Part shown: positions 25,542 through 35,150 of the stretch, in pieces | How the letters are laid out: every line of letters begins with the position of its first letter | How positions within the stretch are numbered: position 1 is the first letter of the stretch | From: an uncultured beta proteobacterium | GTDB lineage: Bacteria; Pseudomonadota; Gammaproteobacteria; Burkholderiales; Burkholderiaceae_C | Direction: 5' to 3' | Length of the DNA stretch: 37,531 nt | Assembly (NCBI GenBank): GCA_903876715.1 | Contig: CAIRBF010000200.1 | Location: 1-37,531, forward strand | Program-made: the position numbers and the translations under genes | Notes under the pieces: model-generated | The model's input: the letters and a program-made list of their open reading frames with translations, nothing else | Told to the model about the DNA's origin: nothing | The model's database searches: none

Positions 25542-26570
25542 TCAGTCCAGGTCAGTCCCCAGCTGGTACAGGCAGTCGCCGCGCTCGCAGGGCGCGGGTG
25601 CACGCTTGCACAAGACCAGGGCGTCGATCTCGAAGCGTACGGTCAGCGGCTCCCTCCAGGGCGAGTCGTGGAAGTGGATGCGCGCGGCGGCTTGCCCGGC
25701 CCGCACCTCGTCGCCGATCTCGACCAAGGGCTCGAACAGGCCGCGCTCCATCGCATAGACGTGGTGCGTGTGGCCACCCACCTGCATCAGGCGTGTCGGG
25801 GCGGGCGTCGGCAGGTCAGCCTGCACGAGCAGGCCCGTCTCGCGCAGCACGCGCCGCAGTCCGTCGCGCATCAGCGCCATCGATGCCGGCGTGACGAGGT
25901 TGCCGCCGCCGCACTCGGTGGCCATGCCGAGCACGCCTTGACGAAGCGCTGCGGCTGAGAGGGTGCGCCCGCTGTTGGAGGCTGCGTTCGAGAAGAAGCT
26001 CACCGGAGCGCCGAAGGCCCGCACCAGGCGCAGCAGCCGCTCCATGGCGGCAGGCTCGGCCTGGCGGTAGGCGAGCACGCAGGGCACGTAGGTGAGCGAG
26101 CTGCCGCCGGAGTGCAGGTCGAACACGAGGTCGAAGCCGGGCAGCAGCACGTGCTCGAGCCACCACGCGAGCTGCTGCGTCGCGGTGCCGTGGGTGTCGC
26201 CCGGGAAGGCGCGGTTGAGGTTGCCGTCGTCGATCGGCGAGGTGCGCTGCGCGGCGCTGGCCGCGGGGAAGTTGGCCGAGGGCAGGATCACCAGGCATCC
26301 GTGGACGTGCTCGGGCTCGAGTGCGCGGATCAGCTCGCCGAGCGCGATCTGGCCTTCCCACTCGTCCCCGTGGTTGCCGGCCATCAGCAGCACCCGCGGG
26401 CCCGGGCCCCGCGCGATGCGGGCGATCGGGGTCGGTATCCAGCCGTAGGCCGAGCGGTGCGCCGAGTGCGGCTGACGCACGAAACCCACTGCCTTGCCTT
26501 CGGCATGCAGGTCGATGTCGCATTGCAGCAGGCTGTCTGCGGCAGTGCGGTTTGCGGCACTCGTTCTCAT
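25542..26570 (-). CDS. DoeB-like N-acyl amino acid deacylase (succinylglutamate desuccinylase/aspartoacylase family)
   Basis: A 342-residue zinc hydrolase. The zinc ligands are H67 and E70 (GNHGDEWEG) and H153 (DLHSGGSS). NLNRAFPG at about 117-124 is the substrate-carboxylate motif, and TECGGGN near residue 218 carries the probable catalytic Glu. The order and wording (TSPIDDGNLNRAFPGDTHGT) resemble DoeB, the N-acetyl-diaminobutyrate deacetylase of ectoine breakdown. No doeA or other ectoine gene is visible, so that substrate is not supported. The second ATG (26570) is chosen because AAGGAG lies 7 bases before it, whereas the ATG at 26576 would be only one base away. It is the last gene of the sox/ABC operon, 45 bp after the ATPase gene. 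It probably removes an acyl group from an imported amino acid derivative (inference). Confidence 0.82.
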   Translation of the reverse strand: MRTSAANRTAADSLLQCDIDLHAEGKAVGFVRQPHSAHRSAYGWIPTPIARIARGPGPRVLLMAGNHGDEWEGQIALGELIRALEPEHVHGCLVILPSANFPAASAAQRTSPIDDGNLNRAFPGDTHGTATQQLAWWLEHVLLPGFDLVFDLHSGGSSLTYVPCVLAYRQAEPAAMERLLRLVRAFGAPVSFFSNAASNSGRTLSAAALRQGVLGMATECGGGNLVTPASMALMRDGLRRVLRETGLLVQADLPTPAPTRLMQVGGHTHHVYAMERGLFEPLVEIGDEVRAGQAAARIHFHDSPWREPLTVRFEIDALVLCKRAPAPCERGDCLYQLGTDLD

Positions 26571-26615
26571 GCCCATGCTCCTTGTCGACCTGCGGCCTGA
26601 CCCGACCCCGCCTTT

Positions 26616-27359
26616 TCAGTGTTCGAGGATCTTCGACAGGAACTGCTGCGTGCGCTCGGACTGCGGCGCGCCGAAGATGCGCTCGGGCGGACCCTGCTCG
26701 ACGATGCGGCCGGCGTCCATGAAGACGACGCGGTCGGCCACCTTGCGCGCGAAACCCATCTCGTGCGTGACGACGACCATGGTCATGCCGCTGCCCGCGA
26801 GGTCGACGATGACGTCGAGCACCTCCTTGATCATCTCCGGGTCGAGCGCCGAGGTCGGCTCGTCGAAGAGCATGATCTTGGGCTCCATGCACAGCGAGCG
26901 CGCGATGGCCACGCGCTGCTGCTGGCCGCCGGAGAGCTGGGACGGGTACTTGCCCGCCTGCTCTGGAATGCGGACCCGCTCGAGGTAGCTCATGGCCTTG
27001 GCCTGTGCCTGCGCGCGCGGGGTGCCGCGCACGCGCACCTGGGGCAGGGCGCAGTTCTCGAGCACGGTCAGGTGCGGGAACAGGTTGAAGCTCTGGAACA
27101 CCATTCCGACCTCGCGCCGGATGGCCTCGATGTGGCGGCCGTCCTCGTCGAGGACGGTGCCGTCGACGGTGATGGTGCCGGCGTCGTGCGCTTCCAGGCC
27201 ATTGATGCAGCGGATCAGGGTCGACTTGCCCGAGCCGGAGGGCCCGCAGACCACGACGCGCTCGCCGGCCTGGATGTCGAGGTCGATCTCGCGCAATACC
27301 TGCAGCGGGCCGAACCACTTGCTGACGCTGCGCATCTGGATGATCGGTGCCGTGGACAT
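26616..27359 (-). CDS. Polar amino acid ABC importer ATPase (GlnQ/HisP type)
   Basis: A 247-residue ATPase. Walker [10 protein letters not shown] is at residues 39-47, the signature LSGGQQQ at 142-148, Walker B LFDEP at 164-168 and VVTHEMGFA supplies the switch His, all typical of the GlnQ/HisP/AapP group. The ATG at 27359 is preferred to a TTG 39 bases upstream on family N-terminus; GGAG is 11 bases away. It is the only ATPase for the two amino-acid permeases in this operon, one directly upstream and one at the operon's 5' end. Confidence 0.92.
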
Positions 27360-34287: not shown

Positions 34288-34328
34288 CTGCGGGTGCGGG
34301 TTGTGATGCGGCTCGGGCGGGCGGCTCG

Positions 34329-35150
34329 TCAACGCCTGCGGTAGCGATGCTCGAGCCAGCTCACGAACAAGGAAAGGGTGATCGTGATGACGAGGTAGAT
34401 CGCCGCCGTCGTGAGCCAGATCTCGAAGGCCATGAAGGTGTCGGAGACGACGTTGCGTGCCTGCGTGGTCAGGTCGAAGACGGCGATCACGCTCACGATG
34501 GCGGAGTGCTTGACGAGGTTGACGAGCACCCCGCCCAGCGGCGGCAGCATCAGCGGCACGGCCTGCGGCAGGACGATGTCGCGGTACAGGTTGAACTCGG
34601 AGAAGCCCAGGCTGCGTCCGGCTTCCCACTGTCCGCGCCGCACTGCGATGATCGCCCCGCGGATGATCTCGGCCGCGAAGGCGCCTTCGTACAGGGCCAG
34701 GCACAGCACCCCGGCGCCCATGCGCGGGATGCCCAGGATCGCCGCGACGATGAAGTAGATGATGAGCATCTGCACCAGGATCGGCGTGTTGCGCACGACC
34801 TCGATGTAGATCCAGGCGATGGCCGAGCCGACGATCGTGTTCGACAGGCGCAGCACCGCCGTGACCAGGCCGATCAGCAATGCCAGCAGTCCTGCTTGCC
34901 AGGCGATGTCCAGCGTGACGAACAGGCCCTTGGTGAGCGCGCCCCAGATGATCTCGCCGTCGATCACGCGCACCAGGTAGCGCGGCACCTGGTCCCACTT
35001 CCACTGGTAGCCCATGCCCTGGGCGCCCTGGACGATGAAGGCCACCGCGCCGAGCGCGAAGGCGGCGAACAGCAGGGCCTCGAACCACCAGGCACGGTGC
35101 CAGGCGACGGGTCTCGGGCGCCGCTCGGCGCTGGCTGTGGATGTCGACAT
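34329..35150 (-). CDS. Amino acid ABC importer permease (first gene of the sox operon)
   Basis: A 273-residue inner-membrane permease of the HisM/HisQ class. Its first membrane segment is at about 22-44. YQWKWDQVPRYL in the loop after it is typical of the group, and the EAA-type loop is EAGRSLGFSEFNLYRDIVLP. The ATG at 35150 is chosen because MSTSTASAERR precedes the first segment at normal distance. No Shine-Dalgarno is evident. A -10-like TATCAT on the minus strand (35172-35177) lies 22 bases upstream without a good -35. The gene heads the operon, while the other permease, the binding protein and the ATPase are at its far end, so the importer is split by the four sox genes. Confidence 0.9.
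   Translation of the reverse strand: MSTSTASAERRPRPVAWHRAWWFEALLFAAFALGAVAFIVQGAQGMGYQWKWDQVPRYLVRVIDGEIIWGALTKGLFVTLDIAWQAGLLALLIGLVTAVLRLSNTIVGSAIAWIYIEVVRNTPILVQMLIIYFIVAAILGIPRMGAGVLCLALYEGAFAAEIIRGAIIAVRRGQWEAGRSLGFSEFNLYRDIVLPQAVPLMLPPLGGVLVNLVKHSAIVSVIAVFDLTTQARNVVSDTFMAFEIWLTTAAIYLVITITLSLFVSWLEHRYRRR

Follow-up and report, generated by a model that had tools for sequence, protein, structure and literature searches.

What does a demethylase do when its genes lie inside an operon for amino-acid import? The question is raised by a contig of 37,531 nucleotides (CAIRBF010000200.1, here C200; positions 1–37531), which is the whole of the stretch that we analysed (the window) and which belongs to a 505-contig draft genome of an uncultured beta proteobacterium. 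On its minus strand, four genes resembling those of heterotetrameric sarcosine oxidase (SoxBDAG) lie between two permease genes of an ATP-binding cassette (ABC) importer, with a zinc deacylase gene further along. An initial annotation had read the set as a route for an imported N-methylated, N-acylated amino compound that is deacylated and demethylated. We find that the operon is real and conserved and that its SoxBDAG is divergent. The cluster suggests a substrate that is an unusual N-methylated, probably ring-bearing amino acid rather than sarcosine, with methylated histidine as the first candidate and homarine as the second.

The operon is a ten-gene run on the minus strand, from 35150 to 24253, whose largest gap is 57 bp: a permease, soxB, soxD, soxA, soxG, a binding protein, a second permease, an ATPase, an AstE/AspA-type deacylase and an enolase-superfamily gene. 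The nine genes named by the initial annotation, from the start of the first permease (35150) to the stop of the deacylase (25542), are present and intact, and Pfam and NCBIfam confirmed their families. The importer is complete by the same two libraries, with an SBP_bac_3 periplasmic binding protein (28354..29166; PF00497), two amino-acid permeases (permM, 34329..35150, with PF00528 and with HEQRo_perm_3TM above cut-off; permQ, 27427..28323, with PF00528) and one ATPase (26616..27398) that scores 327 bits as GlnQ-like and 311 bits as EhuA-like, each below the equivalog cut-off. The sox genes had been described as overlapping, which holds for soxD and soxA (8 nt); the other sox junctions are short gaps, and the remaining intergenic gaps in the run measure 3–57 nt. 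The deacylase had been taken as the end of the operon, and here the description needs correcting: an enolase-superfamily (MR/MLE) gene (25512–24253, same strand; PF13378 and PF02746) begins 29 nt further on. Because of the short gap, the shared strand and its retention in a second species (G457, below), it is probably the last gene of the operon, which would then be one gene longer than first noted. As far as gene spacing can tell, the deacylase does not appear to belong to an unrelated transcript.

The gene set and order, soxB-soxD-soxA-soxG, match those of heterotetrameric sarcosine oxidase, but all four subunits score below the NCBIfam sarcosine-oxidase cut-offs: SoxB (33037..34287) with 483 bits against 529 (TIGR01373), SoxD (32717..33001) with 87 against 116.5 (TIGR01374), SoxA (29773..32724) with 1144 against 1164 (TIGR01372) and the divergent SoxG (29224..29769) with 49 against 144 (TIGR01375). 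Pfam matches include PF04267 above cut-off in SoxD, which also has a CPHC...HxxxC pattern; PF01571, PF17806 and PF13510 in SoxA, whose folate (GCV_T) domain is intact; and PF04268 in SoxG (25 bits, cut-off 21). Elsewhere in the genome, contig C31 holds part of soxA, soxD and a soxB that scores 700 bits (cut-off 529) and carries the motif GWGTGGFK, together with genes for L-serine ammonia-lyase (sdaA) and glyA, and contig C133 holds the end of a soxA, a soxG (142 bits, cut-off 144) and a gene for formate–tetrahydrofolate (THF) ligase. We infer that these are the halves of one canonical sox operon. The usual sarcosine partners are, as had been remarked, not visible in the window, where queries for glyA, purU, folD, M24 and dimethylglycine-dehydrogenase-like genes were nowhere the best match (tblastn, E 1e-8, each place assigned to its best query). 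As glyA and purU are rare in core and other loci alike (groups defined below), their absence by itself says little.

We placed the window SoxB in a tree of 108 rows, with groups denoted core (22, or 23 with L107), wide (8), N-methylglutamate dehydrogenase (Mgd; 7) and canonical (66). It falls within the core clade (Shimodaira–Hasegawa-like approximate likelihood ratio test, 100), apart from the canonical rows and from the Mgd reference L140, an Aminobacter MSH1 locus assigned as Mgd from its glnT and glutamate-synthase-like neighbours. The groups also differ in their active-site motif (positions numbered by 1vrq_B). Gly353-Thr354 is present in 66/66 canonical rows and in the C31 copy. In 23/23 core rows, Gly353 is deleted and Thr354 is replaced by Trp (22) or Tyr (1), the deletion adjoining the conserved Lys. 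Mgd-group rows have Cys and Tyr at 353–354 (each in 6/7), and the eight wide rows retain Gly, followed by Ser (6) or Ala (2). Arg69 and Lys358, which we take to hold the substrate carboxylate, are retained in every group. The sub-cut-off subunits, the clade, the altered motif and the separate canonical set with glyA and sdaA all set this Sox set apart from ordinary sarcosine oxidase, in line with the initial annotation, and we rejected plain sarcosine oxidase as its main function. Membership of Mgd was rejected as well, the window SoxB lying outside that clade and differing in motif, and Mgd is kept as an enzyme that it may work like. Tandem soxB copies ahead of one soxD-soxA were seen at two other loci (three copies at L088 5788–9613, two at L095 7073–9642).

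Within the genus, SoxB matches at E 1e-60 or better occur in 18 of the 60 genomes searched (the window genome included). SoxB of the window type occurs in two of them, the window genome and G457, whose copies are 98% identical; the other SoxB matches share 42%–47% identity. G457 is a second species, and it keeps in the same order the importer, soxBDAG, deacylase and enolase genes and DESAT, a gene for a desaturase-like membrane oxygenase (35270..36211, plus strand; weak NCBIfam matches, best to DesA and GntB) that diverges from the operon and starts 119 nt upstream of the first permease. Across the 11 genes compared, protein identity is 77%–98% (DESAT, 90%) and the ratio of nonsynonymous to synonymous substitution rates (dN/dS) is 0.05–0.24 (deacylase, 0.20; enolase gene, 0.225). 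Because the run is kept at such identities and ratios, it is more than a chance arrangement.

The same neighbours are met again well beyond the genus. We compared 82 loci, made up of 80 SoxA relatives in named genomes (among the matches listed) and two plasmid loci, and split them along the SoxB tree into 25 core, 8 wide and 49 other loci with similar median lengths (22.9, 22.9 and 22.0 kb). Among loci without a full SoxB row, L057, L066 and L085 were assigned to the core by SoxA identity (57%–59%), and L089, L093, L106, L123 and L128 were left in "other." DESAT homologues (40%–55% identity), a Rieske oxygenase (A) and a 361-aa protein were each found in 15/25 core loci versus 0/49 others, and the binding protein in 13/25 versus 0/49. 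The first permease was found in 15/25 versus 0/49 (11 at ≥45% identity; the others may be a sister permease), a second Rieske oxygenase (B) in 11/25 versus 0/49 (six at ≥40%, the remainder weak cross-matches), the deacylase and AllG each in 7/25 versus 0/49, and an amidase in 6 versus 1. The Rieske-type ferredoxin was found in 3/25 versus 0/49 by tblastn, and beside DESAT in more loci by clustering of open reading frames. P-values for this enrichment reach down to 1.8e-09, for loci that are not independent of one another and with many neighbour queries taken from the core locus L058. Absences of neighbours are weak evidence, as several of the core loci are truncated where their contigs end. 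With six Ruegeria loci removed, DESAT, the 361-aa protein and Rieske oxygenase A each stand at 9/19 versus 0/49, and the binding protein at 7/19. DESAT belongs to the recurrent cluster. The enolase gene has no homologue in the relatives' loci (0 core versus 0 other) and was rejected as part of a general cluster.

In the window, DESAT is followed by the ferredoxin gene (36332..36640, minus strand; 65 bits for the MocE family, cut-off 136) and by the alpha subunit of a Rieske oxygenase (36834..37531, plus strand), which is cut by the contig end and is B-like (34%–40% over the part present), closest to the B oxygenases of Ruegeria-type clusters and of L070, L073 and L083. The Ruegeria loci (L058 14825–22428 and similar) carry, beside SoxBDAG, genes for the amidase, AllG, one or two proteins of ∼210 aa, Rieske oxygenase B, an aldehyde dehydrogenase, the deacylase and a HisC-like aminotransferase; of this module, the 210-aa, AllG, amidase and aminotransferase genes are all that L103 (2414–6617) has. 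The ∼210-aa family had no Pfam match above cut-off, and a PDB sequence search gave nothing under E 0.6. Carbamoyl transfer by AllG (PF06545; in Ruegeria-type clusters, L070, L075 and L103) was rejected for the window, whose genome has no match. A 323-aa protein without NCBIfam match lies two genes from hutU in L083 (2382–3353), with relatives in L054, L073 and L075. On a Mesorhizobium plasmid, L141 (1890–5751 and 5980–17178) combines an EhuABCD-like importer, an M24 peptidase, an amidase, a third SoxBDAG type, pyridoxal-phosphate enzymes and purU, apparently an independent pairing of importer and SoxBDAG.

We looked to these neighbours for clues to the substrate. The 361-aa protein has no Pfam or NCBIfam match, and a PDB sequence search gave only weak lectin matches. 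A structural model built from 10 relatives (predicted local distance difference test [pLDDT], 78.7) was closest in Foldseek to 2,5-dihydroxypyridine dioxygenase (E = 1.4e-16; top three 7cn3_C, 7cn3_A and 7cup_E, with template modelling scores of 0.58–0.61 at 14% identity), followed by aminopeptidases (1.4e-10). The modelled fold is that of the NicX dioxygenase, which makes ring cleavage a putative function. Six genomes were searched for the NicX-like gene, and two have it, that of L056 (Pelagibius) and that of L058 (Ruegeria). L056, L075 and L082 have genes like those for N-methylglutamate synthase (mgsABC and/or gmaS) close to SoxBDAG, which makes 3/33 core and wide loci versus 0/49 others; the window has none. 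Histidine-utilization (hut) genes lie near SoxBDAG in 5/33 core and wide loci versus 0/49 others (P = 0.009). Those above curated cut-offs are hutI and hutF in L059 (plus a partial hutH by similarity), hutC in L082, hutU in L083 and hutH, hutC and hutU in L122/L187; in L063, hutF is cut by the contig end, and a weak hutD-like match in L077 was left out of the count. A full hutH is present in G457. The binding protein has as its nearest solved relative 9e2b, bound to L-tryptophan (E = 4.6e-109), a kinship that rests on the profile search, the model of the window protein being weak (pLDDT, 63.6). AncCDT-1 and other solved relatives have an Asp where the alignment reads Ser or Ala in 13/13 binding-protein rows, and Ser in 9e2b.

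Relatives of Rieske oxygenase A were read at eight plasmid loci. In four, an ABC set for amino acids (His-type or other) or peptides is accompanied by a reductase and by a hydrolase of the DUF2817 or AstE family; one of these four also has hisC and a formaldehyde dehydrogenase, and another has hutF. Two, on Ruegeria and Leisingera plasmids (L189 11977–15993 and L195 6211–11900), have a NicX-like gene and an amino-acid ABC set with the Rieske oxygenase, with no SoxBDAG in the stretch. One has SoxBDAG and a NicX-like gene, and the Thalassospira locus has a reductase only. In the window genome, the Rieske oxygenase most like the clustered one is encoded on contig C499. Oxygenases of this type occur in 6/60 genus genomes, including both carriers of the window-type SoxB (P = 0.008, n = 2). 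The window SoxB, the deacylase and one Rieske oxygenase of the genome group with betaproteobacterial rows.

The deacylase (25542..26576) has the AstE/AspA catalytic domain PF24827 (137 bits) and the zinc pattern HxxE...H...E, with the HxxE, H and E columns aligned. An ectoine route was rejected, given a DoeB score of 229 bits against a cut-off of 402.7 and no M24 gene in the window. The tie between deacylase and Sox that the initial annotation drew is partly borne out by the core loci (7/25 versus 0/49), by G457 and by the L103 genome; it leans on Ruegeria, which supplies five of the seven core cases. Among the named matches listed, L103 has the SoxB closest to that of the window (84% identical), and a separate contig of its genome carries permQ, ATPase, deacylase (64% identical) and Rieske oxygenase genes in one row. 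Sox-linked rhodobacterial deacylases form a group other than that of the window copy (split 100/100), so that sox-linked deacylases were apparently recruited more than once; a single origin is not formally rejected (approximately unbiased test, p = 0.075).

We favour, tentatively and at somewhat less than even confidence, an operon dedicated to the catabolism of an N-methylated heteroaromatic amino acid, with a methylated histidine (of the methylhistidine or anserine type) as the likeliest substrate class. The ABC system would import the amino acid. Oxygenases (here DESAT and the Rieske enzyme) and ring-opening steps encoded elsewhere would convert it to an N-acyl-N-methyl amino acid, from which the AstE-type deacylase would remove the acyl group. 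This would be a formyl group or, in the case of an imported dipeptide such as anserine, a beta-alanyl group. The N-methyl amino acid, most simply N-methylglutamate, would then be oxidised by the divergent SoxBDAG, which would pass the carbon to THF as methylene-THF and leave an ordinary amino acid. On chemical grounds, N-methylglutamate could be the end point for both methylhistidine and homarine; histidine is favoured because of the hut neighbours. Each of these catalytic steps, like the substrate, is proposed from what can be read in the genomes, namely gene content, synteny, selection, clade, motif and recurrent neighbours. The initial idea of a compound that is imported, deacylated and demethylated is thus partly supported, and the source of the N-acyl group may differ from the one assumed: with oxygenases that attack rings, a NicX-like dioxygenase and hut genes present in relatives, the group may arise inside the cell on ring opening instead of being imported.

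Several observations weigh against this proposal. No hut genes lie in the window, and a search of the window genome for hutH gave no more than a partial gene at the beginning of a contig (404 bits against a cut-off of 539). Within the core alone, hut genes are near 2/25 loci (P = 0.11). The richest case, L122, is a long-branched member of the wide clade whose placement is uncertain, and its SoxB passes the sarcosine-oxidase cut-off (533 versus 529); without it, the hut enrichment falls to P = 0.02. The NicX-like gene is absent from the window genome (G000) and from those of G457, L103 and L122 among the six searched, and a GmaS search of the window genome gave only glutamine-synthetase-like matches of 30%–46%. 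The C499 oxygenase lies on a contig other than that of the operon, and its wider family is common; the window ferredoxin and Rieske genes are not beside DESAT in G457. The enolase gene is left unexplained.

Could the substrate instead be an N-methylpyridinium carboxylate such as homarine? Ring hydroxylation by Rieske and desaturase-like oxygenases and NicX-type cleavage would give an N-formyl-N-methyl amino acid, the deacylase would free formate, and SoxBDAG would demethylate N-methylglutamate. Homarine is considered because of the NicX-like fold of the 361-aa neighbour in 15/25 core loci and because Mgd is stated to take part in homarine catabolism, in a passage of a 2026 paper (PMC13390433) that cites Ferrer-Gonzalez et al. 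2026; several core loci also come from marine genera or hosts. The missing NicX-like genes just listed count against homarine, the hut genes seen around the wider clade agree better with histidine, and we consider this substrate unlikely. A betaine of histidine or of another aromatic amino acid, such as hercynine, is somewhat less probable again. By analogy with the breakdown of glycine betaine, two N-methyl groups would first be removed by Rieske and desaturase-like enzymes and the last one by SoxBDAG, and the freed histidine would enter the hut pathway. An N-alpha-methyl amino acid would suit Sox chemistry, the Arg and Lys of the site being conserved, the Ser or Ala that all 13 binding-protein rows have in place of the Asp of AncCDT-1 is in keeping with such a ligand, and hutH lies beside a Rieske oxygenase gene in L187; on the other hand, the deacylase, the NicX-like enzyme and the N-methylglutamate genes would go unexplained, and the clade placement of L187/L122 is uncertain.

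The remaining explanations question whether the genes form one route at all. The deacylase and enolase genes might serve N-acyl amino acids as a module apart from the demethylation route, one that moves together with amino-acid ABC transporters. The tree places the window deacylase together with Burkholderia and Cupriavidus copies whose surroundings, as far as read, lack sox, ABC and deacylase genes occur without sox in the stretches read of Mesorhizobium, Chelatococcus and Nitratireductor plasmids, and the link without the six Ruegeria loci is 2/19 versus 0/49 (P = 0.075), all of which also tells against the methylated-histidine route. Yet the deacylase stands in 7/25 core loci, apparently by more than one recruitment, and is retained in G457 and in the L103 genome, and we rate a separate module about as improbable as homarine. 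Least probable is an ordinary second oxidase of the sarcosine or dimethylglycine route whose place amid the importer and deacylase genes is a matter of chance. In the order of its subunits, the flavin-His motif, the folate domain and the Arg and Lys of the substrate site, the window set indeed agrees with SoxBDAG, but such an oxidase is hard to reconcile with four sub-cut-off scores, a motif changed throughout the core, a canonical copy elsewhere and neighbours that recur, even in loci that are not independent.

If the operon does act on methylated histidine, anserine or homarine, a catabolic fate would be assigned to animal and algal nitrogen compounds, and the deletion-Trp motif would serve as a sequence marker for the route, with a link to the N-methylglutamate pool. 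More broadly, and with more doubt, the AstE-type deacylase and this SoxBDAG clade may form the final part of a route by which N-methylated heteroaromatic amino acids (methylhistidine/anserine or homarine) are broken down via N-acyl-N-methylglutamate, a folate-linked branch of demethylation that would be undescribed so far and scattered across Alpha-, Beta- and Gammaproteobacteria. Annotations seen for genes of the clade read sarcosine oxidase, bare FAD-dependent oxidoreductase or iron–sulfur protein. A literature search on homarine, methylhistidine and anserine, whose coverage left out most subscription papers, found no title on this operon; the novelty would fall if a published homarine operon matches these clusters. 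Elsewhere in the window, LysR, glucarate dehydratase, 2-dehydro-3-deoxyglucarate aldolase and tartronate semialdehyde reductase genes (19982–24155) form an ordinary glucarate operon that converges on the enolase gene, and a galactarate dehydratase gene lies at 4307–6040.

How does the cluster compare with known systems? Its deacylase shares the PF24827 domain and zinc pattern with DoeB, AstE and AspA, and differs from DoeB in its score (229 bits versus 402.7) and in the lack of a DoeA-like M24 gene in the window. In Pararhizobium and Rhizobium, relatives of DESAT adjoin genes for MocE-family ferredoxins, and MocDE-type desaturase and ferredoxin act in rhizopine demethylation; identity is 32%–34% only, the window ferredoxin is below the MocE cut-off, and the DESAT–ferredoxin pairing is not kept in G457. 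With only this pair related, a rhizopine cluster was rejected. With homarine catabolism, the point of comparison is Mgd, which takes part in it according to the citing passage (PMC13390433). Canonical SoxBDAG (TIGR01372–TIGR01375; PDB 1vrq, 2gag) has the same subunit set and order, flavin-binding His motif, substrate-site Arg and Lys and SoxA folate domain, whereas the window enzyme has subunits below cut-off and a deletion plus Trp in place of the Gly-Thr near Lys, and sits inside an ABC operon. MgdABCD forms a separate clade, with Cys/Tyr (each in 6/7 rows) rather than the core deletion-Trp, and the window has no gmaS/mgs genes. It shares with the window enzyme the SoxBDAG architecture and, in most rows of both groups, an aromatic residue in place of Thr, and gmaS and/or mgs genes lie near the related L056, L075 and L082.

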